Below are positions 2,291 through 27,717 of a stretch of DNA of 34,782 nucleotides, one piece after another. Where the stretch lies: NCBI GenBank assembly GCA_902792685.1, contig CADBAP010000016.1, forward strand, positions 1 through 34,782. Direction: 5' to 3'. Origin of the DNA: an uncultured Prevotellaceae bacterium (GTDB lineage: Bacteria > Bacteroidota > Bacteroidia > Bacteroidales > Bacteroidaceae). Both the position numbers and the translations under genes were made by a program. Every line of letters begins with the position of its first letter. Within the stretch, counting starts at the first letter, position 1. A model generated the notes under the pieces. The model was not told the DNA's origin, did not search any database, and saw only the letters and a list, made by a program, of their open reading frames with translations.

Positions 2291-2325
2291 GACCCTCCCC
2301 CTGCCCCTCCCTGTATATGGAGGGG
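2291..2325 (+). repeat. C-rich hairpin element A, just after the LysE-type stop codon
   Basis: Starts 3 nt after the stop. A C-rich head (GACCCTCCCCCTG) leads to a stem pairing CCCCTCC (2304-2310) with GGAGGGG (2319-2325). Sense orientation to the preceding gene. Same architecture as elements C, D, F and I. Confidence 0.8.
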
Positions 2326-2335
2326 AGTAAAGAGG

Positions 2336-2363
2336 GGTTGTAAAATCGTAAAATTGTGAATTA
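2336..2363 (+). repeat. GTAAAATTGT-type AT-rich spacer repeat
   Basis: Two to three near-repeats of GTAAAATNGT lie directly upstream of the DUF4924 start codon. Similar spacers precede cinA-type, atpC, atpG and acn start codons elsewhere in this window. Confidence 0.6.
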
Positions 2364-2368
2364 TATAA

Positions 2369-2914
2369 ATGTTTATCGCTAAAGAATTAAAGAAGAAAAG
2401 TATTGCGGAATATCTGCTGTATATGTGGCAGGTAGAGGATATCATCCGTGCTTACGGATGCTCGCTGACCCGTATTCAGAACGAATATATCAACCAGTTT
2501 GATTATACCGACGAACAGAAGGAAGAGGAAACCGACTGGTTCGGCGACCTGATTCGCATGATGAACAGCGAAGGATGCCGCGAAAACGGACACCTTGCCA
2601 TCAACCAGATTATCATCCAGCAACTCTCAGAACTCCATTTGCAGCTGTTGGATTCCACGAAGTTCCCTTTCTACAATACGGAATACTATCGTGTGTTGCC
2701 CTTTATCGTGGAACTGCGCCAGCGGGGAAATGATGAGAACGAGGACGAGATAGAGACGTGCTTCAACGCGCTCTACGGCACCATGCTGCTGCGGTTGCAG
2801 AAGAAAGAAATCAGTGAAAACACCCAGCATGCCGTCAAGGAGATTACCACTTTCATCGGTATGCTCAGTGACTACTATCTGAAAGATAAAGAGGAAGGGC
2901 TACAGTTTGAATAA
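2369..2914 (+). CDS. DUF4924 family protein
   Basis: A 181-residue, mostly helical, acidic cytoplasmic protein. The N-terminus (MFIAKELKKKSIAEYLLYMWQVEDIIRAY) and the ENGHLAINQ and FNALYGTMLLRLQKKEIS stretches are those of DUF4924, a family found in Bacteroidetes with no assigned function. No signal peptide, membrane segment or catalytic motif is visible. It is followed 13 nt later by rfbD and is probably co-transcribed from the promoter at 1583, although the C-rich hairpin between it and the LysE-type gene may attenuate read-through. The start ATG is clear and agrees with family length. Confidence 0.85.
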   Translation: MFIAKELKKKSIAEYLLYMWQVEDIIRAYGCSLTRIQNEYINQFDYTDEQKEEETDWFGDLIRMMNSEGCRENGHLAINQIIIQQLSELHLQLLDSTKFPFYNTEYYRVLPFIVELRQRGNDENEDEIETCFNALYGTMLLRLQKKEISENTQHAVKEITTFIGMLSDYYLKDKEEGLQFE

Positions 2915-2927
2915 TAAGAAGACGAAT

Positions 2928-3776
2928 ATGAATATTTTGATTACCGGCTGTAACGGTCAATTAGGAAATGAAATTCAATTGCTGGAGAAGGATTTTCCCC
3001 AGCATACCTTTTATAATACGGATGTGGCGGAACTGGATATCACGGATGAAGAAGCTATCCGACAGTTCGTGCAAGACAATGCCATCGACGGCATTATCAA
3101 CTGCGCTGCTTATACCGCCGTTGACAAAGCTGAAGACAACGAGGAACTTTGTACGAAACTGAATGCAGAGGCGCCGGCATATCTCGCACAAGCCGTTGGT
3201 GAACAGGACGGATGGATGATTCATATCAGTACCGACTACGTGTTTGACGGCACCAACCACACGCCTTACAAGGAAGACGACGAGACGTGTCCGAACAGTG
3301 TCTATGGACGAACGAAACTCGTGGGCGAGTTCAATGTACAGAAGCTTTGTCCTCGATCCATGATTATCCGCACAGCGTGGCTCTATTCTACGTTCGGCAA
3401 CAACTTCGTCAAGACGATGCTGCGACTCGGAAGGGAAAAGAGCGAGCTGGGTGTCATCTTCGACCAGATAGGTACACCCACCTGTGGGCACGACCTCGCC
3501 GTAGCCATCATGACGGCAATCAGCAAAGGCATTGTGCCGGGCATCTTCCATTTCACCAACGAGGGTGTCACCAGCTGGTACGATTTCACCAAGGCCATCC
3601 ACCGCATAGCCGGCATCACCACCTGCAAGGTTCGTCCGCTGCATACGGAGGAATATCCCACACCCGCTTCCCGTCCCCACTACGGTGTGCTGGACAAAAC
3701 GAAAATCAAACAGACCTACGGCATTGAGATCCCCCACTGGGAAGAGAGTCTCGAAGTATGCATCAAAGCCCTTTAA
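2928..3776 (+). CDS. rfbD: dTDP-4-dehydrorhamnose reductase
   Basis: A 282-residue short-chain-type reductase that catalyses the last step of dTDP-L-rhamnose synthesis, reducing dTDP-4-dehydrorhamnose with NAD(P)H; the sugar feeds surface polysaccharide. Visible are the nucleotide-binding turn GCNGQLG (7-13), the STDYVFDG motif (101-108) and the YGRTK catalytic Tyr-Lys pair (Y126, K130). Length is normal. The other rml genes (rfbA, B, C) are not in the window, so this is a lone reductase beside DUF4924. The ATG at 2928 is preferred to an in-frame TTG at 2907, which overlaps the upstream gene and adds seven residues before the conserved MNILITG start. Confidence 0.92.
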   Translation: MNILITGCNGQLGNEIQLLEKDFPQHTFYNTDVAELDITDEEAIRQFVQDNAIDGIINCAAYTAVDKAEDNEELCTKLNAEAPAYLAQAVGEQDGWMIHISTDYVFDGTNHTPYKEDDETCPNSVYGRTKLVGEFNVQKLCPRSMIIRTAWLYSTFGNNFVKTMLRLGREKSELGVIFDQIGTPTCGHDLAVAIMTAISKGIVPGIFHFTNEGVTSWYDFTKAIHRIAGITTCKVRPLHTEEYPTPASRPHYGVLDKTKIKQTYGIEIPHWEESLEVCIKAL

Positions 3777-3815
3777 AGAAGAATATTTAACTAGAAAATT
3801 CCCACCCAATTAGTC

Positions 3816-3850
3816 TCTCTCCTCCCTTGGGAGGAGTTGGAGGTGGGGTC
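3816..3850 (-). repeat. C-rich hairpin element B, antisense, before prfC
   Basis: The reverse strand reads GACCCCACCTCC, then a stem pairing CTCCTCCC with GGGAGGAG (3819-3826 with 3829-3836) over a TT loop. It ends 8 nt before the prfC start codon and is inverted relative to element D after the prfC stop, so prfC is bracketed by inverted copies. Confidence 0.8.
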
Positions 3851-3858
3851 AAACTTTT

Positions 3859-5478
3859 ATGAATCAAGAAATAGAAAGAAGAAGAACATTTGCTATCATC
3901 TCCCACCCTGATGCCGGTAAGACCACGTTGACCGAGAAGTTCCTGCTTTTCGGTGGACAGATTCAGGTGGCGGGAGCCGTGAAGAGTAACAAAATCCGCA
4001 AGACGGCTACTTCCGACTGGATGGATATCGAGAAACAGCGTGGTATCTCCGTCAGCACATCCGTCATGGAGTTCGACTATACCCCCGAAGGGTCTGAGAT
4101 AGAATACAAGGTGAACATCCTGGATACTCCAGGTCACCAGGACTTTGCCGAAGACACCTACCGCACGCTGACGGCTGTTGACTCTGCCATCATCGTTGTC
4201 GATGGTGCCAAAGGTGTGGAGGCACAGACGCGCAAACTCATGGAGGTGTGCCGTATGCGCAATACGCCCGTCATCATCTTCATTAACAAGATGGACCGCG
4301 AAGGTCGTGATCCCTTTGACCTGTTGGATGAGCTGGAGCAGGAGCTACAAATCAAGGTGCGCCCCTTATCATGGCCCATCAATCAGGGACAGAAGTTCAA
4401 GGGTGTGTATAACATCTACGAAGACAAACTCGATCTGTTCACTCCTGACAAGCAGCGCGTGACAGAAAAAGTGGAGGTGAGCCTCACCCCTACCCCCTCT
4501 CCAAAGGGAGAGGGGAATAGTCACCCTTTTGTTGATGACATTATTGGCGAACAGGATGCCCAGCAGCTGCGCGACGACTTGGAACTGGTCAGCGGCGTTT
4601 ATCCCGACTTCGAGGTCGAGACCTACCGTTCGGCAGAGGTAGCACCCGTGTTTTTCGGTTCAGCACTCAACAACTTCGGTGTGCAGGAGCTGCTCAACTG
4701 CTTTGTAGAAATCGCACCATCGCCGCGTCCCACGAAAGCCGAGGAGCGTGAGGTGCAACCCGACGAGCAGAAGTTCAGCGGATTCATCTTTAAGATTACC
4801 GCCAACATCGACCCGAACCACCGTTCCTGTATCGCCTTCTGCAAGGTGTGCAGCGGTAAGTTCCTGCGCAACCAGCCTTACCTGCATGTGCGTCAGGGGA
4901 AAACACTTCGTTTCTCCTCTCCCACTCAGTTTATGGCACAGCGTAAGTCAACCATCGACGAGGCGTGGGCAGGAGATATTGTCGGATTGCCAGACAACGG
5001 CATCTTCAAGATTGGCGATACGCTGACAGAAGGGGAACAATTACATTTCCGCGGACTTCCCTCCTTCTCGCCTGAGATGTTCAAATACATCGAAAACGAT
5101 GATCCGATGAAATCCAAGCAGTTGGAAAAAGGTATTAACCAATTGATGGATGAAGGTGTGGCACAGCTGTTTGTGAACCAGTTTAATGGCCGAAAAATCA
5201 TCGGTACGGTAGGACAATTACAGTTTGAAGTCATCCAATACCGTTTGGAAAACGAATACAATGCGAAGTGTCGCTGGGAACCGGTACATCTCTACAAGGC
5301 TTGCTGGATAGAGGCCGATGATGAAAAGGAACTGGAGAACTTCAAGAAACGCAAGTATCAATATATGGCGAAAGACCGTGAAGGTCGTGATGTATTCCTC
5401 GCCGATTCCGGCTATGTGCTCTCGATGGCGCAGCAAGACTTCGAACACATCAAGTTCCACTTTACCAGTGAGTTCTAA
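3859..5478 (+). CDS. prfC: Peptide chain release factor 3
   Basis: RF3 is the GTPase that removes RF1/RF2 from the ribosome after termination. The 539-residue protein has the P-loop HPDAGKTT (16-23), switch II DTPGH (89-93) and NKMD (143-146), followed by the RF3-type domain II and C-terminal regions. It is slightly longer than the usual 525-530 residues. Near residues 208-220 the peptide [12 protein letters not shown] is encoded by an in-frame C-rich hairpin element (4483-4515), in the loop after the G domain where RF3 sequences vary in length, so activity is probably retained. A further element follows the stop codon immediately, then a bidirectional terminator at 5527-5569. Confidence 0.95.
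4483..4515 (+). repeat. C-rich hairpin element C, in frame inside prfC
   Basis: A C-rich head followed by a 9-bp perfect stem (4494-4502 with 4507-4515) around AAAG. It is 33 nt, keeps the prfC frame and encodes about [12 protein letters not shown]. Same design and sense orientation as the post-stop elements A, D and F. Confidence 0.85.
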
Positions 5479-5512
5479 GACCCCACCCCCATTCCCCTCC
5501 CAAAGGGAGGGG
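5479..5512 (+). repeat. C-rich hairpin element D, abutting the prfC stop codon
   Basis: Begins at the base after TAA. The head GACCCCACCCCCATT is followed by CCCCTCCC (5494-5501) pairing with GGGAGGGG (5505-5512) over an AAA loop. No T-run follows directly, so it is not a classical terminator; that role belongs to the hairpin at 5527-5569. Confidence 0.85.
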
Positions 5513-5526
5513 CTTAAAAAGAATAA

Positions 5527-5569
5527 CAAAAAATGGTCGCCCAACATTTGTTGAGCGACCACTTTTTAT
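5527..5569. terminator. Bidirectional terminator between prfC and the DUF4295 gene
   Basis: TGGTCGC (5534-5540) pairs with GCGACCA (5555-5561), extended by CAAC/GTTG across one mismatch, with an ATTT loop. A-rich sequence precedes and TTTTTAT follows, so it can stop transcription from both convergent genes. Confidence 0.85.
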
Positions 5570-5590
5570 ATAAAATAAAATCTGTTCGAA

Positions 5591-5749
5591 TTAGTTCTTG
5601 AAGAAATCCTTCACAGCCTCGTTGGGAACCATCTGCTCATCGAAGATATAAGCACCGGTCTTGGGGCTTTTTACCATTTTGATAACCTTTGTGTATGCGC
5701 GACCGTCCGTAGAACCTTCATGGAGGGTAGCAACCGCTTTCTTTGCCAT
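5591..5749 (-). CDS. DUF4295 family small protein
   Basis: A 52-residue basic protein, MAKKAVATLHEG at its start and a NEAVKDFFKN end. It matches DUF4295, a short Bacteroidetes family usually encoded directly after rpmB and rpmG, as here. The position beside two ribosomal protein genes and the lysine-rich composition suggest a ribosome-associated role, but none is established. ATG start, with the stop followed by the shared terminator. Confidence 0.85.
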   Translation of the reverse strand: MAKKAVATLHEGSTDGRAYTKVIKMVKSPKTGAYIFDEQMVPNEAVKDFFKN

Positions 5750-5774
5750 TTCTTAAATGCTTTTAAACGTTATT

Positions 5775-5966
5775 TTACTTAATCTCCTTGTGAATGGTCA
5801 TGCGCTTCAGGATGGGGTTGTATTTCTTCAACTCCAGACGCTCAGCCGTATTCTTACGATTCTTGGTCGTCACATAACGGCTTGTTCCTGGAAGACCGCT
5901 ATTCTTCATCTCAGTGCATTCGAGAATAACCTGCACTCTGTTTCCTTTTGCTTTCTTGTTTGCCAT
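5775..5966 (-). CDS. rpmG: 50S ribosomal protein L33
   Basis: A 63-residue basic protein with the L33 pattern: [13 protein letters not shown] near the start, then [23 protein letters not shown] and the closing [17 protein letters not shown] region. It binds 23S rRNA near the E site. The four zinc-binding cysteines of the C+ form are absent (only one Cys is present), so this is the zinc-independent form. It lies 5 nt after rpmB and is part of the rpmB-rpmG-DUF4295 operon. Confidence 0.95.
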
Positions 5967-5971
5967 GATGA

Positions 5972-6235
5972 TTAATCTCCTATCACTTTAATGTCTTTCC
6001 AGTCTACATAACCTTTGGCAACAGCCTGCTTCAAAGCAGCATCAAGACCTACCTTGTTAATCATACGGAGACCTGCTGCACTAATCTTGAGGCGAATCCA
6101 GCACTGCTCTTCTACATAGTAGAACTTCTTGCTGAACAAATTAACATCAAAGCTTCTCTTTGTACGGTGCTTTGAGTGAGACACATTGTTGCCAATCTGT
6201 GCCTTCTTTCCTGTAATCTGACAAATCTTAGACAT
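5972..6235 (-). CDS. rpmB: 50S ribosomal protein L28
   Basis: An 87-residue protein beginning [27 protein letters not shown], the L28 signature, and continuing with the Bacteroidetes-type [31 protein letters not shown] region. L28 is a late-assembling large-subunit protein. It is first in a three-gene operon with its own promoter at 6289-6319, separate from the upstream cinA-type gene. Confidence 0.96.
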
Positions 6236-6288
6236 TTCTATCTACTCTTTTTAGTATTCGTTAATTGATACCTATTCCAAACAGGGTG

Positions 6289-6319
6289 CAAAATTACTAA
6301 GATTCTTTGAATTAACAAA
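6289..6319 (-). promoter_or_regulatory. Promoter of the rpmB-rpmG-DUF4295 operon
   Basis: Reverse strand TTTG (6316-6319), 19-nt spacer, TAATTTTG (6289-6296). It lies in the 109-nt gap after the cinA-type gene and gives a leader of roughly 45 nt before rpmB. Confidence 0.75.
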
Positions 6320-6344
6320 ACTTTCACCTAAATAATCTTTGAAT

Positions 6345-6872
6345 TTAAGGATTTTTTTCATTCTCACTGCCCGCCATATGTACATTCTTGGTTTTCAGAT
6401 AGTCCAAAAAGAGCCTTAGCGACTTATCGGTGGCAATAGCAAGATTGATATCGCGCCCATAATCCTGAGTGAGTTTCATCGTAACAATATCATCCATCAT
6501 ACCACAGGCAATCCAGATAGTGCCGACAGGCACTTCTGGTGTTCCTCCACCAGGTCCGGCAAAGCCTGTAGATGCGATGGCGAAGTTTACATTCAAAATC
6601 TGAATGGCTCCTTTCACCATTTGTCTTGCCACATCCTCACATACAGCCGTTTGCTCTGCAATCACCTGAGGATCAACGCCCAACAAATTCTCTTTGATTT
6701 CATCGGTATAGGAAATGATGCCACCTTTATAATAATTAGAGGCTCCAGGAACAGAAATCAGTCCCTCTCCTATCCGTCCGCCAGTACAACTCTCAGCTGT
6801 TCCGACGGTCAAGCCTGATGCATACAAGATGTCTCCAATCTCTCTGCTGATAATTTTCGTTTCAAATGCCAT
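6345..6872 (-). CDS. CinA C-terminal-type nicotinamide-nucleotide amidohydrolase
   Basis: A stand-alone CinA C-terminal domain of 175 residues, as in PncC, which deamidates nicotinamide mononucleotide to nicotinate mononucleotide in pyridine-nucleotide salvage. The AESCTGG motif (26-32) with its catalytic Ser, YYKGGIISYTDEIK, and the TGFAGPGGGTPEVPVGTIWIA stretch are typical. The N-terminal molybdopterin-binding-like domain of full CinA is missing, which is normal for this subfamily. It follows tsaD by 17 nt with a GTAAAATTGT-type spacer between them, consistent with one transcript. Enzymatic activity is inferred from family only. Confidence 0.88.
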   Translation of the reverse strand: MAFETKIISREIGDILYASGLTVGTAESCTGGRIGEGLISVPGASNYYKGGIISYTDEIKENLLGVDPQVIAEQTAVCEDVARQMVKGAIQILNVNFAIASTGFAGPGGGTPEVPVGTIWIACGMMDDIVTMKLTQDYGRDINLAIATDKSLRLFLDYLKTKNVHMAGSENEKNP

Positions 6873-6889
6873 ATCTATATTTTACAATT

Positions 6890-7903
6890 TTACTTAAACG
6901 TCACTTTCGAAAATGCAGGTTTGTCAATCGAACAGAAATCGCCATCCAGATATTTATAGTAGCCCGTAATGCCAATCATAGCAGCATTGTCGGTGGTATA
7001 ACTGAACTTGGGAATATAGATGGTCCACCCATAGCGTTTCGCATAATCGTGGAAAGCTTGTCGAAGTCCGTTGTTGGCAGAGACGCCACCGGCAACAGCT
7101 ACGTGTTTGATTTTCGTCATCTTAACGGCCTCGCGCAGTTTCTTCATCAGGATATCGACAATCGTGAACTCCAGACTGGCAGCAAGGTCTTCCTTGTGAT
7201 GCTCCACAAAATCAGGATCTTCAGCCACCCATTTGCGCAGGTTGTACAGGAATGACGTTTTCAATCCGGAGAAGCTGTAGTCAAGTCCCGGGATATGCGG
7301 CTCCGAGAACTGGTAGGCATGCGGATTACCCTGACGGGCCAAACGGTCAATGATAGGACCGCCCGGATAGCCCAAGCCCATCACCTTCGAACACTTGTCT
7401 ATCGCTTCACCTGCAGCATCGTCGATGGTCTGTCCCAAAATCTCCATATCGTTGTAGGCATTCACTTTGACAATCTGCGAGTTTCCGCCGCTGACCAGCA
7501 GACAGAGAAACGGGAAAGGAGGAAATGGTTCCTCAATAAAATGTGCCATCACGTGTCCCTGCAAGTGATTGACGTCTATCAGCGGAATGTTCAGGCTCCG
7601 TGCGAATCCTTTGGCAAAACTGACGCCCACCAGAAGACTTCCCATCAAGCCTGGCCCGCGTGTAAAAGCAACGGCGGAGAGCTGTTCTTTGGTGATACCT
7701 GCCTGTTTGATGGCTTGCGCAACCACAGGAACGACATTCTCCTGATGGGCACGTGACGCCAGTTCCGGCACCACACCTCCATAGGCTTCGTGTACGGCCT
7801 GCGATGCGGTCACATTCGACAACAACACGCCATCTTTCAGTACGGCTGCCGAAGTGTCATCACAACTGCTCTCTATACCTAATATATATATGTCTTTTTC
7901 CAT
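6890..7903 (-). CDS. tsaD: tRNA threonylcarbamoyladenosine transferase subunit TsaD
   Basis: TsaD transfers the threonylcarbamoyl group from its adenylate to A37 of ANN-decoding tRNAs, with TsaB and TsaE, which are not in this window. The 337-residue protein has the ASKHA-fold pieces: ESSCDDTSAAV (11-21), GGVVPELASRAH (42-53), the metal-binding HLQGH (H113, H117), VSGGNSQIV, DDAAGEAIDK, AVAGGVSANNGLR and DNAAMIG near the end. Length is normal. It lies 42 nt after map; an array of CAAACGAC-like repeats fills that gap. Confidence 0.97.
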   Translation of the reverse strand: MEKDIYILGIESSCDDTSAAVLKDGVLLSNVTASQAVHEAYGGVVPELASRAHQENVVPVVAQAIKQAGITKEQLSAVAFTRGPGLMGSLLVGVSFAKGFARSLNIPLIDVNHLQGHVMAHFIEEPFPPFPFLCLLVSGGNSQIVKVNAYNDMEILGQTIDDAAGEAIDKCSKVMGLGYPGGPIIDRLARQGNPHAYQFSEPHIPGLDYSFSGLKTSFLYNLRKWVAEDPDFVEHHKEDLAASLEFTIVDILMKKLREAVKMTKIKHVAVAGGVSANNGLRQAFHDYAKRYGWTIYIPKFSYTTDNAAMIGITGYYKYLDGDFCSIDKPAFSKVTFK

Positions 7904-7906
7904 TTT

Positions 7907-7940
7907 TGGTCGTTTAGGAAATTTGTCGTTTGGTCGTTTG
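7907..7940. repeat. CAAACGAC-type tandem array between map and tsaD
   Basis: On the coding (reverse) strand three degenerate CAAACGAC copies begin about 5 nt after the map stop and end just before the tsaD start codon. One of the short-unit arrays that sit at gene 3' ends in this window. Confidence 0.7.
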
Positions 7941-7945
7941 GGAGA

Positions 7946-8809
7946 TTAGTACGTCAGTATTTCAACTCCGTGCTCGGTCATCAAAAACGTGTGTTCCCAC
8001 TGTGCGCTGGGCAGTTCATCATCTGAAATCACTTCCCATCCGTAGGGGTCGTCGCCATCGATGAACACCTTCCAGGAACCCATGTTCACCATCGGCTCAA
8101 TCGTAAACACCATTCCAGGCACCAGCAGCATTCCTTTGCCTTTGTGACCGACATGCATCACGTCAGGCTCTTCATGGAACTGCAAACCGACACCATGACC
8201 GCACAGGTCGCGCACAATGCCATAATGGTATTTGTCGGCATGTTTCTTGATGGCGTAACCGATATCACCAACGAATCCCCAAGGCTTTGCAGCCTCAGCA
8301 CCGATTTCCAGGCACTCTTTCGCAACTCGCACCAGCTGCTCTTTCTCCGGCGTAGTCTTACCGATGATAAACATACGGGATGCGTCTGCATAGTAGCCGT
8401 CGAGTATCGTTGTGAAGTCCACATTGATGATATCGCCTTCCTGCAGAATATCTTCTGCTTTCGGAATACCGTGACATACAACTTCGTTGATGCTTGTGCA
8501 TACACTCTTGGGGAAGCCTTCATAGTTCAAACAAGCTGGAGTAGCACCGTGATCCTGACAGTATTGCATGCAGATCTCGTCGATTTCCAATGTGCTCATA
8601 CCAGCATGAATGTGTTTGGCAACCTCATCGAGGACACCGGTATTAACAACACCGGCACGACGGATGCCTTCTATCTGTTCCTGCGTCTTGATCAGGTCGC
8701 GCGTAGGAACTTCCTTTCCTTTATTTTCCCAATACATCACCTTCTTGTCGAACTCCGTAGGTTGCTGACCAGGAAGGCAACGCCATCTTCTTTTCTTTCC
8801 GATTTTCAT
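7946..8809 (-). CDS. map: Type I methionine aminopeptidase
   Basis: Removes the initiator methionine from nascent proteins. All five metal ligands are in place: D131 and D142 (in INVDFTTILDGYYADASRMF), H205 (GHGVG), E238 (TIEPM) and E272 (QWEHTF). At 287 residues it is longer than E. coli Map because of an N-terminal stretch of about 40 residues containing RRWRCLPGQQPTEFDKKVMYW, a form seen in Bacteroidetes. Its start ATG overlaps the stop codon of the upstream metallo-hydrolase by 4 nt, so the two are translationally coupled. Confidence 0.96.
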   Translation of the reverse strand: MKIGKKRRWRCLPGQQPTEFDKKVMYWENKGKEVPTRDLIKTQEQIEGIRRAGVVNTGVLDEVAKHIHAGMSTLEIDEICMQYCQDHGATPACLNYEGFPKSVCTSINEVVCHGIPKAEDILQEGDIINVDFTTILDGYYADASRMFIIGKTTPEKEQLVRVAKECLEIGAEAAKPWGFVGDIGYAIKKHADKYHYGIVRDLCGHGVGLQFHEEPDVMHVGHKGKGMLLVPGMVFTIEPMVNMGSWKVFIDGDDPYGWEVISDDELPSAQWEHTFLMTEHGVEILTY

Positions 8810-9609: not shown

Positions 9610-9628
9610 CTGATGCGCATATTTTCTG

Positions 9629-9660
9629 CAAAGGTACGATTAAGTGAGCGGAAATGCAAA
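9629..9660 (-). promoter_or_regulatory. Promoter of the MBL-map-tsaD-cinA operon
   Basis: Reverse strand TTTG (9657-9660), 20-nt spacer, TACCTTTG (9629-9636): a full consensus match 20 nt before the start codon at 9607-9609. Confidence 0.8.
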
Positions 9661-9689
9661 TTTATTTGCAATTTTCCGAACGCAAGTAC

Positions 9690-9726: not shown

Positions 9727-9735
9727 TCGAGCTTT

Positions 9736-12954: not shown

Positions 12955-13461
12955 TTATTCTTTCTTGTTGTCAACAGAGATATCATCCAGCAATCTGTCT
13001 ATCAATTCATTCTGCTGCTTCTGGTCGGACAGTTTCTCGCGGAGAATCTTCTCAGCGATCTGTACGGAGAGTTCTGCCACCTGTGTGCGGATGTCGCGGA
13101 TAGCGTTCTGCTTTTCCGTTTCAATCTGCGCTTTCGCGTCAGCGAGCAGGCGGGCACCCTCATCGCGTGCTTTGTCCTCTGCCTTCTTCACAATGGCCTC
13201 GCGGGTTTCAGCTGCCTCCCGAAGGATTTGCGCCTGTTTCTCACGTGCCTCTTGCAGAATGGATTCACCTTCTTTTTGGATATTGGCCAGCTTCTCGTTG
13301 GCTTCATGTGCCTTGCGCAGACTCTCGTCAATGAAAGCCTTGCGGTCGTTCACCATCTTGACGATCACGGGGAAACCCCATTTCCACAAGATGAACAGAA
13401 CGATGAGGAACACCAAGCTCATCCAAAAAAGTAAGCCAGTATCAGGCAATAATAATGACAT
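12955..13461 (-). CDS. atpF: ATP synthase Fo subunit b
   Basis: Peripheral-stalk subunit of 168 residues. One membrane helix (about 8-28, LLFWMSLVFLIVLFILWKWGF) is followed by a long charged helix rich in Glu, Lys and Ala that forms the stator coiled coil and ends in a delta-binding region. Only one b gene is present, so the stalk is a homodimer. 73 nt after atpE. Confidence 0.95.
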   Translation of the reverse strand: MSLLLPDTGLLFWMSLVFLIVLFILWKWGFPVIVKMVNDRKAFIDESLRKAHEANEKLANIQKEGESILQEAREKQAQILREAAETREAIVKKAEDKARDEGARLLADAKAQIETEKQNAIRDIRTQVAELSVQIAEKILREKLSDQKQQNELIDRLLDDISVDNKKE

Positions 13462-18829: not shown

Positions 18830-18860
18830 TCTCCCCTTGGGGAGATTTAGAGGGGGGCTC
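18830..18860 (-). repeat. C-rich hairpin element E, after the acn stop codon
   Basis: On the coding strand it begins 2 nt after the acn stop with GAGCCCCCCTCTAAA and ends with TCTCCCC pairing with GGGGAGA (18830-18836 with 18839-18845). Sense orientation to acn. It lies in the acn-gltA gap. Confidence 0.75.
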
Positions 18861-21109: not shown

Positions 21110-21116
21110 ATCAATT

Positions 21117-21155
21117 TCACTATTTGACGATTTACAATTTTACAATTTGACGATT
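21117..21155. repeat. AT-rich AAATTGTAAAATTGTAAATCGTC spacer upstream of acn
   Basis: On the coding strand degenerate AATCGTCAAATTGT and AAATTGTAAA words repeat up to about 7 nt before the acn start codon. Confidence 0.6.
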
Positions 21156-21186
21156 CATCCTTATTCTACCACGTCCCCTAACCGCT

Positions 21187-21221
21187 CCCCTCCTTCTCAG
21201 GGAGGGGCTGGGGGGAGGGTC
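21187..21221 (-). repeat. C-rich hairpin element F, after the icd stop codon
   Basis: Begins 2 nt after the icd stop on its coding strand with GACCCTCCCCCCAG, then CCCCTCC pairs with GGAGGGG (21201-21207 with 21187-21193 on the reverse strand). Its head is nearly identical to element A. Confidence 0.8.
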
Positions 21222-21223
21222 TT

Positions 21224-22426
21224 TTATTTCTCCAACCGTTCGCGGATAGCTGCGATAAAGCCAGCTGAAGTCTGCGGCTTCGGCTCAACACCTTCCATCA
21301 GGTTCACAAGATCCTTGGTTACAATGCCCTCGTTCAATGTATCCAAACAAGCAGCCTCCAGCTTGTCGGCGAAAGCAACGAGGTCGTTCAATCCATCCAG
21401 TTCGCCACGCTTACGCAGCGCACCGCTCCAGGCAAAGATGGTTGCCATCGGGTTGGTGGAGGTCTCTTCACCCTTCAGGTATTTATAATAGTGACGCGTC
21501 ACAGTTCCGTGAGCCGCCTCAAACTCATAGTTTCCTTCCGGACTAACGAGTACACTCGTCATCATTGCCAATGAACCGAAGGCTGTCGAGAGCATATCAC
21601 TCATCACGTCGCCGTCATAGTTCTTGCAAGCCCAGATAAAGCCGCCCTTCGAACGGATGACACGTGCCACAGCATCATCAATCAGTGTATAGAAGTATTC
21701 GATGCCCAACTGTTCAAACTGTGTCTTGTATTCCTGCTCATAGAGTTCTTCGAAAATAGCACGGAAACGGGCATCGTATTTTTTAGAGATGGTATCTTTC
21801 GTAGAGAACCACAAGTCCTGCTTGGTGTCGATGGCAAACTTAAAACAAGAGTGTGCAAACGAACGGATTGACGCATCCGTGTTGTGCATACCTTGTATCA
21901 CACCTTCACCCGTGAACTCATGAATAACGACCTCTTCTACCTTGCCGCTTTTTCCTTCAAACACCAGTTTGGCAACACCAGGCTCGTCGGTCTTGATTTC
22001 TACGCTCTTATATACGTCACCATATGCATGACGGGCAATGGTAATCGGCTTTTCCCAGTTCTTGACAACGGGTTTGATAGAAGGAATAGTAATTGGAGCA
22101 CGGAAAACAGTGCCGTCCAAGATAGAACGGATGGTACCATTAGGACTCTTCCACATCTTGTGGAGCTTGTATTCATCCATACGCTGGGCATTGGGCGTGA
22201 TGGTTGCACATTTCACAGCCACACCATATTTCTTGGTTGCCTCAGCCGAATCAATCGTTACCTGATCGTTGGTCTCATCACGATGCGGCAGTCCCAAATC
22301 AAAATATTCTGTTTTCAAATCAACAAATGGAAGAATCAGTTCATCCTTAATCATCTTCCACAGAATACGAGTCATCTCGTCACCATCCATCTCCACCAGC
22401 GGAGTGGTCATCTGAATTTTCTTCAT
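21224..22426 (-). CDS. icd: NADP-dependent isocitrate dehydrogenase
   Basis: Oxidatively decarboxylates isocitrate to 2-oxoglutarate, supplying NADPH and the precursor of glutamate. The 400-residue protein is of the homodimeric, eukaryote-like type: VEMDGDEMTRILWKMIK at the start, the SPNGTIRSILDGTVFRAPI substrate-binding stretch, and AAHGTVTRHYYKYLKGEETSTNPMATIFAW near the coenzyme site. It is first of icd-acn-gltA, 114 nt before acn. The cluster lacks 2-oxoglutarate dehydrogenase, consistent with a biosynthetic partial TCA cycle in anaerobic relatives. Confidence 0.95.
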   Translation of the reverse strand: MKKIQMTTPLVEMDGDEMTRILWKMIKDELILPFVDLKTEYFDLGLPHRDETNDQVTIDSAEATKKYGVAVKCATITPNAQRMDEYKLHKMWKSPNGTIRSILDGTVFRAPITIPSIKPVVKNWEKPITIARHAYGDVYKSVEIKTDEPGVAKLVFEGKSGKVEEVVIHEFTGEGVIQGMHNTDASIRSFAHSCFKFAIDTKQDLWFSTKDTISKKYDARFRAIFEELYEQEYKTQFEQLGIEYFYTLIDDAVARVIRSKGGFIWACKNYDGDVMSDMLSTAFGSLAMMTSVLVSPEGNYEFEAAHGTVTRHYYKYLKGEETSTNPMATIFAWSGALRKRGELDGLNDLVAFADKLEAACLDTLNEGIVTKDLVNLMEGVEPKPQTSAGFIAAIRERLEK

Positions 22427-22440
22427 ATAGAATCTTATTA

Positions 22441-22479
22441 CTTTTTACCTTTTTAATTTTTTACCTTTTTACCTTTTAA
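22441..22479. repeat. AAAAAGGTA repeat in the icd leader
   Basis: On the coding strand the leader holds four AAAAGGTA or AAAAAGGTAA units between the -7 box and the icd start codon. They resemble multiple weak ribosome-binding sites but may only be AT-rich filler. Confidence 0.55.
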
Positions 22480-22491
22480 TGTAAACGGCTG

Positions 22492-22499
22492 CAAAGTTA
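22492..22499 (-). promoter_or_regulatory. -7 box upstream of icd-acn-gltA
   Basis: Reverse strand TAACTTTG matches TAnnTTTG, about 65 nt before the icd start codon. No TTTG lies at the right spacing upstream, so the promoter is half supported. Confidence 0.5.
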
Positions 22500-22600
22500 C
22501 AAAAAATGCTTAATACTTCATGCATAATACTGAATTATTTTACAATTTGATGCAATTTTAGCTCAAATCCTTGCATTTTTATGCATTTTAAAGGCTGTTT

Positions 22601-23089
22601 TTATACTTCTTGCTGCAAAGACTTCAACATTTCCTTGCAACCGTCTTCAATCATGTCAAGCGCTAATTCGAAACCTTCAGAACCACCATAATAGGGATCG
22701 GGCACATAGTCTTGTCCTTTAAAACGGTTGAAAAAATCCTTCATCCGCACCACTTGTGCCTGTTTATTGTGGGAAGGAATTGAGGGAGCTTTTCTCATCA
22801 CATCCTGATAGTTTTCCTCGTCCATCACGACAATCCAGTCAAACTTTTCAAAATCGTCTGACTGGAACTGTCGTGCCCGCAAAGGTGAGAGGTCATAACC
22901 TCGTTGCGCCGCATGTTTACGCATACGACGATCGGGCTGTTCACCTACATGCCACGAACCGATTCCCGCAGAGTCTATATAGATTTCATCGTCCAGTCCG
23001 TGTTCTTCCACCAGTGCCCGCATAATCCCTTCTGCCGCTGGCGAACGGCAGATATTACCCAAGCACACAAACAATATTCTCTTTTTCAA
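22601..23089 (-). CDS. Low-molecular-weight protein-tyrosine phosphatase
   Basis: A 162-residue cytoplasmic phosphatase. The P-loop nucleophile motif is CLGNICRS (C9, R15) and the general acid D131 is in DPYYGG. Such enzymes often control capsule or exopolysaccharide tyrosine kinases, but no kinase is encoded here. The only start in frame near the conserved KKRILFVCLGN segment is TTG at 23089; no upstream ATG exists before the preceding gene's stop. It lies 48 nt after the secreted-protein gene, across a short array of TTTAACTTCCC units. Confidence 0.93.
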   Translation of the reverse strand: MKKRILFVCLGNICRSPAAEGIMRALVEEHGLDDEIYIDSAGIGSWHVGEQPDRRMRKHAAQRGYDLSPLRARQFQSDDFEKFDWIVVMDEENYQDVMRKAPSIPSHNKQAQVVRMKDFFNRFKGQDYVPDPYYGGSEGFELALDMIEDGCKEMLKSLQQEV

Positions 23090-23125
23090 GATAAAGGGAA
23101 GTTAAAAGGGAAGTTAAAGTGGGAG
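23090..23125. repeat. TTTAACTTCCC short array before the phosphatase gene
   Basis: Three degenerate copies of TTTAACTTCCC on the reverse strand fill most of the gap between the secreted-protein gene and the TTG start of the phosphatase gene. Confidence 0.6.
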
Positions 23126-23137
23126 TTATCGTTATAC

Positions 23138-24037
23138 CTACGGTTGAGAATTTTCGGCATAGACATAATAGATACCGATATCATAGCGGCTCAGTGTCTT
23201 GTTTTTCAGCGTAAGGGTACCAATCACGCAACTCTCAGGCGCCCATCTTACGAAATAAAACTCCGGTCCGGCAGTACTGTCAAAGGCACCGATGATATAA
23301 CTGGGGAAATATTCGCCGCCATCATCCACATTCCAGACCGAGAACGAATCCGGTCCGTCGTATTGTCCTTCACGCTGGATACAATAGGACTTATCCTTGT
23401 CGACCAGCACATCCAGCGCCAACACCTTATTGCCGACAGGTTTGAACTGGATGATTCCGTACGTATATCTGCCGCCAATGGTCGCCATTGCCGTAGAGCG
23501 GTCTGCTTTCATTCCAAACCGTTTTTCAAACTGCTTCACAATATTGGCAGGCATCTCCTTGGTATATCCACCTTCCTTGTCTTTCAGCTGCTTGATGGGC
23601 AACTGCTTATGAGCTTTCAGATACTCAGGTGTCAGCAACAGATCGAAAGAATAGGTAAACGGCTCATCGACCACCTTCACTTTCTCTGGGTGGGCGAACT
23701 GATATTTCAGTCCCTGCATCGCATACCACTGGTTGCGCAGACTGCCGTTCAATGCATCTTCACCTTGGTCGTCCTTCAGAATCTCACCCGTAAATTTCAC
23801 GTCTTCCACCTTGCCGCCGTCCATCAGCAGCTTTGTATAACGGGAAGCGTTCTGGCGCAAATCGTTCTGGATTTCCCAGGAGAGGTCGCTGTCTTCTGTC
23901 TTGTTGACTGCCTCCCAATACACCACCTGCATGTTCGTCTTATTCATATAATACACAAACGCAGGCATATCCTTAACCTTCTGAGCATACACTGTCTGAC
24001 AGCATATTCCCAACAACAGAATCAATACTTTTCTCAT
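23138..24037 (-). CDS. Secreted protein of unknown function
   Basis: A 299-residue protein whose first 19 residues (MRKVLILLLGICCQTVYAQ) form a signal peptide cleaved around AYAQ-type sequence; no lipobox is evident, so export to the periplasm or outer face is likely. The mature part is rich in aromatic and charged residues (for example YGIIQFKPVG, YDGPDSFSVWNVDDGGEYFPSY) and looks mostly beta. I do not recognise the family. The start at 24037 is set by the signal peptide and by a consensus promoter at 24059-24089, which rules out a longer frame from 24226. It may be co-transcribed with the phosphatase. Confidence 0.75.
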   Translation of the reverse strand: MRKVLILLLGICCQTVYAQKVKDMPAFVYYMNKTNMQVVYWEAVNKTEDSDLSWEIQNDLRQNASRYTKLLMDGGKVEDVKFTGEILKDDQGEDALNGSLRNQWYAMQGLKYQFAHPEKVKVVDEPFTYSFDLLLTPEYLKAHKQLPIKQLKDKEGGYTKEMPANIVKQFEKRFGMKADRSTAMATIGGRYTYGIIQFKPVGNKVLALDVLVDKDKSYCIQREGQYDGPDSFSVWNVDDGGEYFPSYIIGAFDSTAGPEFYFVRWAPESCVIGTLTLKNKTLSRYDIGIYYVYAENSQP

Positions 24038-24058
24038 AGTTCTTACGTTTATCCGCCT

Positions 24059-24089
24059 CAAAATTAATACAAATTGGAAACAATACAAA
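24059..24089 (-). promoter_or_regulatory. Promoter of the secreted-protein gene
   Basis: Reverse strand TTTG (24086-24089), 19-nt spacer, TAATTTTG (24059-24066), giving a leader of about 15 nt. Confidence 0.75.
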
Positions 24090-24095
24090 ATAAAA

Positions 24096-25460
24096 TCACG
24101 ATATTTTTTTTGTTGCCTTCCGAAAAAGGAGGTATTGAACAAAACCACGTGTAAAAAGAAACAGCACGAAAGCAAGCCACAAGGCGTGATTTTTCCAATA
24201 AGGTTCCAATAACACATAGAAAACAAAGAAGACGACAGTTGCCGTCACACAAGAGATGAGCATACCACGTGTAGCCGTCATCCCGATGAAGAGTCCGTCG
24301 AAGATGAAAGCTGCCAGTCCGCAGAGAGGAATCACCAATGCCCAAGGAAAGTAAGCAGCAGAAGCACGTATCACATCTTCATTATTGGTCAGCAGATGCA
24401 GGAACTGTGCACCGCCAATAGCATATATGACCGTAAAAAGGAGCATGACTCCCCCGCCCCACAGGAACAGTCCACGGGTAACCTCACGGAAAGGCTGCAA
24501 CTGTTTGCTGCCCCAGTAGCGTCCGCCCACAGCCTCACCTGCGTAGGCGAATCCGTCAAGGAAATAGGAATACAACGTAAAGAGCGTCATCAGCAATGTA
24601 TTCACAGCCAAAATAAGACTTCCCTGCTTAGCTCCAGCAGATATAAAAAAGGTATTCACCGCCACCAATGCTATAGTGCGCAGAAAGATGTCGCGGTTGA
24701 CAGAGAAGAAACGAGGGAACGAGGGAACGAGGGAGCGTGGGAACGAGGATACTTGTAATCTTGTATCCTTGTTTTCTTGTAATCTTGTATCCTTGTTTTC
24801 TTGTAAACCTGTCCTCCGGAAATGCCTGCGATAGTTGACATACCAGAATAGAAGGGCAACACCAAACCCCACCCACTGTGCAATGAGCGTACCCGTCGCC
24901 ACACCTTTTATCTTCATCTCCAGTCCAAAGACCAACAGCAGGCTCATCAGGATATTCACCACATTCTGAAGGATGGACACCAGCATCGGGATACGGGTGT
25001 TCTGCATGCCAATATACCATCCTGATAATCCGTAGAGTCCCAACATGGCAGGAGCGCCCCAGATACAGATGTTGAAATAGTCACGTACCAACGGCCTACT
25101 TGCCTCTGGAGTGTTCATGAACCAAAGACCTGCCTCACGAACAGGATACTGGAGGAGCAAGAATATAAAGGCAACCCCCATCGCCACCGTCATCGACTGG
25201 ACAAGCAGCCGCCACATCTCCGGGAAGTTGCGTTGTCCATAGGCCTGTGCCGTCATTCCACTGGTCCCCATGCGTAGGAAGCCAAACACCCAATAGATAA
25301 TATTGAAGAGCATGGACCCAATAGCAATAGCACTGATATATGCTGCATCGCCGATGTGTCCGACAATAGCAACATCCACCAGTCCTAAAAGCGGCACCGT
25401 GATATTCGTGATAATCGACGGTACCGCAATGTTCAGAATTTGTCTATTTGTTGCGGTCAT
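24096..25460 (-). CDS. MATE-family efflux transporter with in-frame repeat insert
   Basis: A 454-residue multidrug and toxic-compound extrusion protein with twelve hydrophobic segments; the start MTATNRQILNIAVPSIITNITVPLLGLVDVAIVGHIG is characteristic, and the group resembles DinF. Between the two six-helix halves, in the cytoplasmic loop after helix 6, lies an insert (bases 24709-24806) that repeats ENKDTRLQ exactly and then runs SSFPRSLVPSFPRF. This is unlike any transporter domain and is built from short tandem repeats. The start at 25460 is preferred because an in-frame TTG at 25496 lies upstream of the -7 box. Confidence 0.9.
   Translation of the reverse strand: MTATNRQILNIAVPSIITNITVPLLGLVDVAIVGHIGDAAYISAIAIGSMLFNIIYWVFGFLRMGTSGMTAQAYGQRNFPEMWRLLVQSMTVAMGVAFIFLLLQYPVREAGLWFMNTPEASRPLVRDYFNICIWGAPAMLGLYGLSGWYIGMQNTRIPMLVSILQNVVNILMSLLLVFGLEMKIKGVATGTLIAQWVGFGVALLFWYVNYRRHFRRTGLQENKDTRLQENKDTRLQVSSFPRSLVPSFPRFFSVNRDIFLRTIALVAVNTFFISAGAKQGSLILAVNTLLMTLFTLYSYFLDGFAYAGEAVGGRYWGSKQLQPFREVTRGLFLWGGGVMLLFTVIYAIGGAQFLHLLTNNEDVIRASAAYFPWALVIPLCGLAAFIFDGLFIGMTATRGMLISCVTATVVFFVFYVLLEPYWKNHALWLAFVLFLFTRGFVQYLLFRKATKKIS
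24709..24806. repeat. In-frame tandem repeats inside the MATE gene
   Basis: Two adjoining arrays. The first (24709-24748) has about four 8-nt units of the form GAACGAGG. The second has an exact 24-nt unit duplicated at 24753-24776 and 24777-24800, then a third start; each unit adds eight residues. The 24-nt unit is itself made of CTTGTA-like words similar to intergenic arrays around 27771-27808 and 28954-28990. Confidence 0.9.
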
Positions 25461-25482
25461 CACGATGGTCGTAAAACGATGA

Positions 25483-25514
25483 CAAAGGTACGACAAATAA
25501 ACGTGCTATACAAA
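25483..25514 (-). promoter_or_regulatory. Promoter of the MATE gene
   Basis: Reverse strand TTTG (25511-25514), 20-nt spacer, TACCTTTG (25483-25490), 22 nt before the ATG. It lies inside the longer open frame and so decides the start. Confidence 0.8.
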
Positions 25515-25621
25515 ATAAACAGAGAAAAATGTTTTTCATAAAAAAACAAATCAAAATGACTTATAGACTTTTTCCCCATTGATTCGTCATTCATAAAACA
25601 AACACTAAAAACCATATAAAA

Positions 25622-26284
25622 ATGAAAAAAGTTGTAGCTGTACACACCGCAATGGCACTCGTGGAGCCATTGACAAAAATTTTCAAGGAATATTTTCCGG
25701 AAGTTAAACTGAACCACATCGCTGATGATTCGCTTATCCAAGAGGTTATCGCCAACAACAAAGTGACACCAGCTGTCAAGCGCCGCCTGCTGAGTTATTA
25801 CATGAATGCAGCAGATGCCGGAGCCGATGTCGTGTTCAACTGCTGTTCATCAGTAGGCGACATTGCCGATCTGGGCAACACCATCGCACCGATTCCCGTA
25901 TTCCGCATCGACTACCCGATGGCGGTTGAGGCCGTAAACAGTGCCAAGCGCATCGGTGTCATCTCTACCCTGCCAACCACATTGGAACCTACGCGTCGCC
26001 TGCTGGAGAACGCGGCAAAGGAAGCGGGCAAGGAGGTGGTATTAGTAGATGGACTCGCCGACGGCGCCTTCCAAGCCGGACAGAGTGGAGATGGTGAAAC
26101 ACACGACCGTCTGATTGCGGAAGCAGCTGCGAAGATTGCTGACCAAGTGGATCTGTTTGTGTTGGCACAGGGTTCTATGGCCCGCATGGAACAACGCCTC
26201 AGCGAACTGACTGGCAAACCCGTCTTGTCGAGTCCTGTTTCTGGTGTGAAAGGCTTGCGGAAGTTCCTTAACCCCCTAAGTTAG
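25622..26284 (+). CDS. Aspartate/glutamate racemase-superfamily protein
   Basis: A 220-residue protein of the Asp/Glu/hydantoin racemase fold. The first-half nucleophile is C74 or C75 in VVFNCCSSVGD. In the second half the position that normally has the second cysteine reads VLAQGSMARM (Q183, S185), so a two-base racemase mechanism is doubtful; a one-cysteine isomerase or decarboxylase-like role fits better. The substrate is unknown, but it lies beside MFS, DUF1537 kinase and BKACE genes, suggesting acid-sugar or keto-acid catabolism. Its last residues (LNPLS) and the stop codon overlap repeat G, so the C-terminus has been rewritten by an insertion. Confidence 0.82.
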   Translation: MKKVVAVHTAMALVEPLTKIFKEYFPEVKLNHIADDSLIQEVIANNKVTPAVKRRLLSYYMNAADAGADVVFNCCSSVGDIADLGNTIAPIPVFRIDYPMAVEAVNSAKRIGVISTLPTTLEPTRRLLENAAKEAGKEVVLVDGLADGAFQAGQSGDGETHDRLIAEAAAKIADQVDLFVLAQGSMARMEQRLSELTGKPVLSSPVSGVKGLRKFLNPLS

Positions 26285-26302
26285 GGGGCAGGGGGTCTGA
26301 AC
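26272..26302 (-). repeat. C-rich hairpin element G, left terminal inverted repeat
   Basis: A 31-nt inverted copy of element H with 29 matches. The outer half is the palindrome CCCCCTAAGTTAGGGGG. It contains the racemase stop codon. Confidence 0.9.
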
Positions 26303-26308
26303 AAATAG

Positions 26309-26446
26309 CATAGGAACCATGAAATTCGCGTTTTGCGTTTTAACAACGAAGAAATAGAGAACAACATAGATGGTGTTGTCAATAAAATTAAGGAATATAT
26401 AAAAACTAATCAATGGAATATAAGATTTCAAAGGAAGGAAAGGTAA
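26309..26446 (+). pseudogene. 3' remnant of a DUF559 (Vsr-fold) nuclease gene
   Basis: In this frame, after a stop at 26306-26308, the peptide HRNHEIRVLRFNNEEIENNIDGVVNKI and onward to a TAA at 26444-26446 matches the C-terminal end of DUF559 proteins, where IRVLRF followed by a conserved asparagine-rich turn and a final helix is typical. The catalytic part is missing, so this is a decayed fragment. The MFS start codon lies within it in another frame. Confidence 0.6.
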
Positions 26447-27717
26447 AGCGTTCAGACCCCCAACCCCCTAACTTAGGGGGATCAAAAAACATCATCCTTG
26501 TCATGCTGGTCATCCTGGGTGTGGTCACCTTCCTCGACCGCATCAACATCAGCGTGGCTGGTTCGGAAATCATCAAAGACCTGAACCTCACCCCCTTACA
26601 ATGGGGATGGGTACAGAGTGCCTTTATCCTGTCTTACGGACTGATGCAGATACCGATGGGAGCCTTCGGAGACCGGCAAGGACACCGGAAGGTACTGGCA
26701 CTGATTGTGTTGTGGTGGTCTTTGTTTACCGCTTTCACGGGAATGGCTGGCGGACTCGCCTCATTACTGGTCATCCGGTTTATGTTCGGTATCGGCGAAG
26801 CAGGTTCATCACCCTGTTCAACGGGTGTCATCAGCCGATGGTTTAAGAAAGAGGAAGTGGGCAAAGCACAGGGATTTGTTTGGGCGGCCAGTCGTATGGG
26901 CGGCGCCCTGACACCTTTCGTCGTCATCCCCGTGATGACAACAGTGGGCTGGCGAACAGCCTTCTACCTGCTCGGTGCTTTGGGCATCGTCTGGGCTGCT
27001 GTATGGTATTGGTATTATAGAGATAGCCCCCTGCAAAACCGGCCCCACCCCGACTCTCCCAAAGGGAGGGAGAAAGAGGAACGATATGGGTCTTCGGCTG
27101 TGGCTTCAGATGGGTCTCTCTGGCATCGTATTCTCCGCTCCCCACAGTTCTGGATTATCTGCGCGATGTATTTCTTCTATGCCTTCGGCAGTTGGTTCTT
27201 CTTCAGCTGGTTCCCCACGTTCATGGAGTTGGGTCGCGGCTTCGAAAAGAGCGAACTGACATACGCCGTAGCCGTACCATTTATTATGAGTATGGTGGGC
27301 AATATCTACGGCGGTTACCTGACAGACAAACTATCTTCGAAATATGGTTTAAAGATTGGTCGCAAAGCATTGGGTAGTACATCGTTAGCACTATCGGCCG
27401 CATGTATGTTCCTGGCGGCATTCATCCCAGGAAAGATGGCGGTATTCATCTTCCTGTCGCTCTGCTTTGGCATCTTCGATTTGATGCTTCCGTCAGCATG
27501 GGCATTGTGCATCGACCTTGGGAAACATCATGCCGGCACGATTGCCGGAGCAATGAATACGGCGGGCAATATCGGAGGCTTCTGTTGTGGCATCTTGTTC
27601 GGACAACTGGTACAGTCATCCGGCAACTACAACCTGCCCCTTTACATGATTGCCGGCATGCTCATCATCAGTTCCATCCTCTTTGCCTTCATCAATCCAA
27701 CGAAGTCGATCGTATAG
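26413..27717 (+). CDS. MFS transporter, anion:cation symporter (hexuronate/galactonate) type
   Basis: A 434-residue, 12-helix transporter. LDRINISVAGSEIIKDLNLT after helix 1, SYGLMQIPMGAFGDRQGHRK and the RFMFGIGEAGSSP segment are those of the ACS family that imports sugar acids such as hexuronates and galactonate. The first ~25 residues (with PQPPNLGGS) derive from the inserted unit ending at 26480, so the native N-terminus has been replaced. A second element in the central cytoplasmic loop (27043-27070, residues about 211-220) encodes PHPDSPKGREKE. Both inserts are in permissive places. Likely substrate is an acid sugar, from the kinase next door. Confidence 0.88.
   Translation: MEYKISKEGKVKRSDPQPPNLGGSKNIILVMLVILGVVTFLDRINISVAGSEIIKDLNLTPLQWGWVQSAFILSYGLMQIPMGAFGDRQGHRKVLALIVLWWSLFTAFTGMAGGLASLLVIRFMFGIGEAGSSPCSTGVISRWFKKEEVGKAQGFVWAASRMGGALTPFVVIPVMTTVGWRTAFYLLGALGIVWAAVWYWYYRDSPLQNRPHPDSPKGREKEERYGSSAVASDGSLWHRILRSPQFWIICAMYFFYAFGSWFFFSWFPTFMELGRGFEKSELTYAVAVPFIMSMVGNIYGGYLTDKLSSKYGLKIGRKALGSTSLALSAACMFLAAFIPGKMAVFIFLSLCFGIFDLMLPSAWALCIDLGKHHAGTIAGAMNTAGNIGGFCCGILFGQLVQSSGNYNLPLYMIAGMLIISSILFAFINPTKSIV
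26450..26480 (+). repeat. C-rich hairpin element H, right terminal inverted repeat, in the MFS N-terminus
   Basis: GTTCAGACCCCCAA followed by the palindrome CCCCCTAACTTAGGGGG. In frame with the MFS gene, encoding DPQPPNLGGS. Inverse of element G. Confidence 0.9.
27043..27070 (+). repeat. C-rich hairpin element I, in frame in the MFS central loop
   Basis: CCCCACCCCGA head, then CTCTCCC pairing (one G-T) with GGGAGGG over an AAA loop. It encodes about PHPDSPKGRE without breaking the frame. Closely related to elements C and D. Confidence 0.85.

Follow-up and report, generated by a model that had tools for sequence, protein, structure and literature searches.

C-rich repeats of probable triplex-motif type abut stop codons head-first in an uncultured Prevotellaceae genome

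We focused on a 34,782-nucleotide (nt) stretch of DNA, hereafter the window, that forms one contig (CADBAP010000016.1) of an uncultured Prevotellaceae genome (assembly GCA_902792685.1; 2.3 Mb in 166 contigs, 78.7% complete). An earlier note, made from these letters alone, described nine C-rich hairpin elements (A to I), and all nine lie at about the positions it gave. Element A (2291..2325, plus strand) has the head GACCCTCCCCC and the stem CCCCTCC/GGAGGGG. It starts 3 nt after the TGA of a LysE-like gene, in sense. Three elements are associated with prfC. Element B (3819..3850, minus strand) is antisense, with its head 8 nt upstream of the ATG. Element C (4479..4515, plus strand) is an in-frame sense insert of the form CCTCACCCC...CCCCTCTCC, nearest to the printed BoxC sequence. 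Element D (5479..5512, plus strand) follows the prfC TAA directly (0 nt), also in sense. Elements E (18830..18860, minus strand) and F (21187..21221, minus strand) each lie 2 nt after a TAA in sense, the genes being aconitase-like and isocitrate dehydrogenase, respectively. Element G (26272..26297, minus strand) is antisense and overlaps the 3' end of a gene at 25622-26284. Its inverted partner, H (26455..26482, plus strand), is in sense and occupies either the 5' region of an MFS gene or its N-terminal extension. Finally, element I (27041..27070, plus strand, sense) adds sequence, in frame, to a variable linker in the MFS protein. The C/G stem is common to the set. The head is looser than the GACCC-rich consensus first proposed: GACCC occurs in A, B, D, F, G and H, GAGCC in C and E, and GGCCC in I.

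Genes were predicted using a custom script based on open reading frames (ORFs) and hexamers. Its stops are fairly safe and its starts unreliable. Copies were detected by a second script requiring a C-rich head, a C/T-rich 5' arm and a stem of at least 7 pairs. In DNA of the source genome selected for containing hits (267,323 bases, window included) there were 82 copies, against 6 in the reversed-sequence control. DNA not selected in this way (399,998 bases) contained 41, against 2. Seven of the nine window elements were recovered; E, which was read from the sequence, and I fall below the script cut-offs. Across the 2.3 Mb genome, the pattern GACCCYMCCCCNNNCCCCTCCC gave 59 matches with up to 2 mismatches, and its reversed form gave 8. 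All nine hairpins are genuine members of a multi-copy set that is more frequent than chance. In a sample of 11 related genomes the script made 126 detections (15 in reversed controls), the noisiest relative being G467 with 8 detections and 5 in its control. An Rfam search of the window returned no match at gathering score.

The 123 copies from the source genome comprise 69 intergenic copies and 54 in called genes. Both flanking genes were called for 58 intergenic copies, and in 46 of these the head is on the side of a stop codon. In 29 it is flush, defined as a gap from element head to stop codon within -3 to 4 nt, and 5.2 were expected. Tails were within this range of a stop in 1 of 23 cases (2.9 expected). 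At start codons there were none, whether heads (0/12) or tails (0/35) were considered. Restricting the count to intergenic regions with a single copy gave 28/38 heads (4.8 expected) and 1/19 tails (2.7 expected) in range of a stop. We also randomised position and orientation inside each intergenic region in 20,000 trials. Flush copies numbered 19/36 in the hit-selected DNA (3.0 expected), 10/22 in the unselected DNA (1.6 expected) and 22/86 in the 11 relatives (2.6 expected); no trial reached the observed value in any set. In the relatives, heads were flush with stops in 22/57 cases (3.3 expected) and tails in 0/39 (1.5 expected). The corresponding values at starts were 1/29 (0.8 expected) and 0/47 (2.6 expected). 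Per relative, flush copies among head-to-stop copies were 3/11 in G059, 1/3 in G495, 1/1 in G072, 3/5 in G467, 1/10 in G016, 5/6 in G584, 4/8 in G427, 1/9 in G441, 0/1 in G069, 2/2 in G446 and 1/1 in G445. Overall, there is a strong, orientation-specific excess of heads abutting stop codons in sense, uneven by genome. The stems of flush copies begin 3-19 nt past the stop, with 20/34 at 13-16. Non-random sense placement behind stops, proposed from four elements of the window, thus holds genome-wide in our sample (29/58). Random orientation and placement, which the earlier note had named as the result that would speak against it, did not appear for intergenic copies.

Could short intergenic spacers, or the gene caller, create this pattern? 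Gene starts are poorly called, and any insert in a short operon gap is near a stop. However, stops are independent of start calls, and the bias is confined to the head side. Among the relatives' intergenic regions with more than 120 nt free, 11/42 copies were flush and 1.1 were expected; hence, the excess does not come from lack of room. For comparison, perfect GC-rich palindromes of other kinds in this DNA had 5/46 stop sides in range, close to the 4.1 expected. Furthermore, the ends of prfC and of the LysE-like gene were checked against orthologues. HFTSEF is the C-terminal sequence of the protein here and of all 17 prfC orthologues listed. Five of 15 LysE-like orthologues end at the same residue as ours and the others at -1 to +7. 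An artefact is scarcely credible.

The orthologues also bear on whether the stops belong to the genes. We compared 20 of the 33 source-genome genes that have a flush element with NCBIfam, and 12 had a model above cut-off. Ten of these 12 proteins end no more than 6 positions short of the model. The exceptions are DegP and the C-terminal processing peptidase, which end 10 and 30 positions short, respectively. Isocitrate dehydrogenase, followed by element F, matches its model to position 400 of 403. Judged by these alignments, the stops ahead of flush elements are native. An element-carried stop that truncates genes is ruled out for prfC and LysE by orthologues, and for 10/12 testable proteins by model ends.

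Element C corresponds to 11 in-frame amino acids of prfC. Of the 30 orthologue loci examined, 4 carry it (our own and the three nearest) and 26 lack it. Orthologues without the insert therefore exist, as the insertion proposal demands. Comparison with orthologues and models thus shows that elements have truly inserted, both within prfC and downstream of native stops. An element directly follows the prfC stop in 2/30 loci, ours (D) and L072. These two belong to different subfamilies; hence, this placement arose more than once. In the 15 LysE-like orthologues no element lies 5 nt or less from the stop; in two (L103, L104) one follows it at a distance of 30 nt. At another locus (L119), rfbD has elements in its 3' part together with a 43-amino-acid extension. 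Hence, inserts do not respect the stop in every case. In-frame positions had been claimed for C, H and I. This stands for C and, in a variable linker, for I. It is doubtful for H, since for most of the best MFS orthologues the alignment begins only near residue 24; H is probably outside the body of the gene. Rickettsia palindromic elements presumably offer a parallel, as they likewise insert in frame in genes; the likeness is one of description and not of compared sequences. Those elements are mentioned in the accessible part of PMC3733652. Annotators should be aware that proteins gain stretches rich in proline and glycine from such repeats. In antisense copies like B (3819-3850), the head is often found 2-17 nt upstream of an ATG or within N-terminal codons, a placement less precise than that at stops.

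We next consider what the elements are. On the C-rich strand the order is a head (the complement of a third strand), a 1-5 nt spacer, the C-rich arm, a loop and the G-rich arm. The head mirrors the 5' arm of the stem in each subfamily, and the mirror is imperfect in single copies. In the source genome, a T or A in the arm is matched by a T or A in the head in 142/201 cases, whereas 500 head shuffles reached at most 0.58 and direct alignment gave 0.48. The relatives gave 135/161, compared with a shuffle maximum of 0.66 (500 head shuffles) and 0.46 for direct alignment; these statistics ignore kinship among copies. The tested features of the intrastrand-triplex motif are present: hairpin arms that are pyrimidine-rich and purine-rich, and a mirror-symmetric third segment with C over C and T/A over T. 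We labelled the subfamilies alpha (GACCCTCCCCCNGCCCCTCCCTGTATGGAGGGGAGTAGATAG, with AGTAG behind the stem), beta (GACCCCACCCCNACCCTCCCAAGGGGAGGG), gamma (AAGCCCCCTCCAACCTCCCCCCTGAGGGGGAGGCTT), delta (TTCAGACCCCCTGCCCCCTAACTTAGGGGG) and epsilon (AGCCTCACCCCNACCCCTCTCCAAAGGGAGAGGGG, which includes element C). In the accessible text of Holder et al. 2015 (PMC4666352), a hairpin with a mirrored third segment and a 1-6 nt loop defines a class II intrastrand triplex, and the E. coli form is BoxC/PIT/TM. Hence, the elements are very probably diversified class II G/C-rich intrastrand-triplex repeats of the BoxC/PIT/TM type, and the G strand could fold as a hairpin plus third strand. The suggestion that the family is new was therefore dropped, as its architecture is known.

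The elements share with BoxC/PIT/TM the pyrimidine arm, loop, purine arm, mirrored third segment, multiple copies and inverted pairs. There is also shared sequence: element C and many copies in relatives carry CCTCACCC..CCCTCTCC..GGAGAGGG. The printed consensus, CCCTCACCC..CCCTCTCCC..GGGAGAGGG, fits copies like C and those of G584, while the commoner subfamilies of the source genome carry T elsewhere. The differences are the several subfamilies with shifted T positions, the many copies in genes and the heads flush with stops in sense. As far as the same partial text goes, the 23 E. coli copies are always intergenic, have no strand bias, are commoner upstream of ORFs and show no distance trend (Holder et al. 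2015, PMC4666352). Exclusively intergenic location, which describes the E. coli copies but does not define the motif, fails here, with 54/123 copies inside called genes. Repeats of the CCCTCTCCC..GGGAGAGGG type in Enterobacter sp. 638 have the same palindrome. The available part of PMC2869309 gives about 100 copies, often at gene 3' ends, in duplicate or triplicate, and presumed to be terminators. Hence, location at gene 3' ends has been noted before; flush or sense placement is not described in that part of the source. We found no earlier report of flush, head-first sense placement behind native stops in the open-licence literature searched. Within that literature this placement looks new, and we have a known triplex-motif repeat with a new relation to stop codons. 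The same architecture has diversified in one genus with the mirror rule kept, and with a precise site relative to stops, where E. coli gave no positional clue. The subfamilies are natural compensatory variants, coupled to a position effect that can be tested (termination, mRNA stability, ribosome release or targeted insertion).

The architecture is widespread. At least 117 stretches match the printed sequence form, and they come from many phyla, among them Proteobacteria, Chloroflexi, Cyanobacteria, Acidobacteria, Planctomycetes, Bacteroidota, Omnitrophica and Nomurabacteria. A degenerate form (up to 3 mismatches) is present in 178/299 genomes of the window's genus, with copy numbers that differ greatly. 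A strict alpha-type pattern matched only 2 of 296 genomes of the phylum (our own and G245). Hence the alpha sequence, unlike the architecture, is narrow. From the at least 117 stretches we read 80 loci with 97 matches, of which 70 copies were placed. The flush excess across phyla is weak, with 6/44 head-to-stop copies and 2.5 expected. Flush copies of the printed motif were seen in Chloroflexi (L126, L142, L179), Bacteroidota (L141, L192) and an alphaproteobacterium (L187).

Our preferred interpretation, to which we give a probability of roughly 50%, is that triplex-type repeats spread and are retained by selection at stops. Copies would arrive via some route, spread through the genome and be kept mainly where they are least harmful or somewhat useful in the transcript. 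A ribosome terminating at a flush stop would have most of the C-rich head within its footprint. Such a ribosome might shield the unpaired head, and the stem would start just past its leading edge. Selection would act against copies that lie at other untranslated sites in RNA or whose G-rich strand is transcribed. Taken separately, selective survival of copies whose head is covered by the terminating ribosome falls a little short of even odds. More doubtful is a tie between translation termination and the insertion or survival of a mobile or spreading triplex-forming repeat, with the native stop marked head-first in sense.

Several observations weigh against spread followed by selection at stops. 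The flush fraction is alike for perfect stems (21/74) and imperfect stems (12/49); hence, an insertion bias fits at least as well as slow selection. Copies are flush before convergent genes in 9/12 cases (relatives, 4/18) and before co-directional genes in 20/34 (relatives, 18/39). Because flush copies are as common before convergent as before co-directional genes, avoidance of polarity is not visible, and we do not retain it as a cause. Among stem mismatches there is no preference for RNA wobble, with 3 T-G and 14 C-A. G-U pairing is therefore not in excess over C-A, and lends no support to a role in the transcript. Copies in called genes are common: in the source genome 18 are sense and 36 antisense, with 12/54 within 100 nt of a called start. 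The relatives have 18 of each (7 sense and 14 antisense in one batch, 11 and 4 in the other). The sense bias previously claimed inside genes is thus absent. The flush bias is also uneven among relatives, being low in G016 (1/10) and G441 (1/9). Lastly, a stable triplex in vivo is unsupported in E. coli according to the accessible part of Holder et al. 2015 (PMC4666352).

The equal flushness of perfect and imperfect stems would suit machinery that inserts the element at stop codons, guided by a sequence target (for example TAA plus a strand cue) or by coupling to translation or transcription. Flush stops are mostly TAA (22/29 here and 20/22 in relatives; background in the source genome, 336/521). 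In addition, of 89 copies away from called stops, 29 have T[AG]A immediately ahead of the head (19.4 expected). This excess is mild, and T[AG]A did not hold up as a simple insertion target. Moreover, because T[AG]A abounds in the AT-rich DNA between genes, a target of three nucleotides by itself fails to explain the use of the real stop. No enzyme was found, and many copies lie in genes and elsewhere. The stem result and the mild T[AG]A excess keep such targeting in play. We nevertheless consider it unlikely.

Hairpins behind stops also recall ordinary intrinsic transcription terminators, and some gamma copies do end in T runs. However, four or more T within 8 nt follow only 1/34 flush copies. 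Ordinary hairpins behind stops in this DNA are broadly spread (71 behind 346 stops), and the elements occur in genes and in both orientations. For E. coli PIT elements, an earlier test showed no terminator activity, as cited in the accessible part of Holder et al. 2015 (PMC4666352). Simple termination is improbable. The earlier note had suggested insertion or selection linked to mRNA 3' ends: its positional part, placement at stops, stands, while the T tracts, the wobble counts and the cited terminator test do not favour it.

Short multi-copy palindromes, often in inverted pairs, are also found among REP elements moved by RAYT proteins (Y1 transposases), and RAYTs of subclass 2.6, in Bacteroidetes, are described as flanked by atypical structures without GT[AG]G. 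In the accessible parts of PMC6006769 and PMC3733652, REPs and REPINs are short palindromes, occur as inverted pairs and lie mostly downstream of genes, with some inside ORFs; one of these papers adds that GTAG termini often supply a TAG stop. The short palindromes, inverted pairs and sites downstream of genes and inside ORFs are shared with the elements here. The differences are the mirrored head, the lack of a GT[AG]G foot and no required Y1 transposase. GT[AG]G was not found at the 5' foot of the hairpins, the heads being of GACCC/AAGCC type.

We searched for Y1_Tnp in the source genome, 80 genomes of the genus and 14 element-bearing genomes. Copies are present, with no Y1_Tnp match, in G584, G427 and G441 (99% complete), G592 (93%) and G396 (73%). 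Hence, given the three 99%-complete relatives, a RAYT is not required. The source genome has one Y1 match, below cut-off, and it contains a different repeat. Among the first 30 Y1 loci there was one clear copy (up to 1 mismatch), at L035, where the gene has its own CCCAGGGC palindrome. In 18 Y1 loci from element-rich genomes (56.5 kb) there were 15 detections, about 0.27 per kb, compared with 0.19 per kb in unselected stretches of G059 and G495. These detections were spread over nine loci and at least 3 of the 15 are doubtful. We read the density near Y1 genes as background and not association, although this is not a clean negative. No pair of elements lay on both sides of a Y1 gene among the loci listed. 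A REP/RAYT origin was set aside, as the 48 loci read show no consistent flanking of Y1 genes, and mobilisation by this route is very improbable.

The Y1 genes have repeats of their own. Palindromes of the CCCAGGGC or CCTGGGGC type occur in seven of 30 Y1 loci. In the genus, Y1 transposase genes (L032, L034-L039 and others) adjoin palindromes such as CCCAGGGCNNNGCCCTGGG, frequently with TAG at the foot; these make up a repeat family of their own. In L001, a 406-amino-acid ORF (787-2007, minus strand) has the weak Y1_Tnp match and in-frame copies of another repeat (PCGKAQGTVAG, ASVPAASPAG). It is apparently a RAYT-like gene with inserted repeats.

Inverted pairs with outward heads can bracket whole intergenic regions, as at 5797-6164 in L270 (G427) and at 13155-13297 and 14999-15149 in L002 (source genome). 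In the L270 pair each head abuts the stop of one of two convergent genes. The inner sequences differ among the inverted-pair loci listed, which does not support a composite mobile unit bounded by such pairs. At 4763-5115 in L261 (G016), an array of elements in the same orientation has spacings that are multiples of 44 nt, a tandem amplification of element plus spacer.

The window contains other repeats. Three nested inverted-repeat pairs (264-302/668-706, 321-356/624-659 and 361-394/538-571) surround an AT-rich core at 264-706. Two of the three are 100% complementary, and the whole resembles a large cruciform, different from the C-rich elements. Short tandem repeats with units of 7-10 nt lie at 24738-24819, at 27733-27758 and 28994-29046, and at 34654-34710. 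The first is in frame in a MATE-like gene, and 27733-27758 and 28994-29046 form an inverted match over 1.2 kb.

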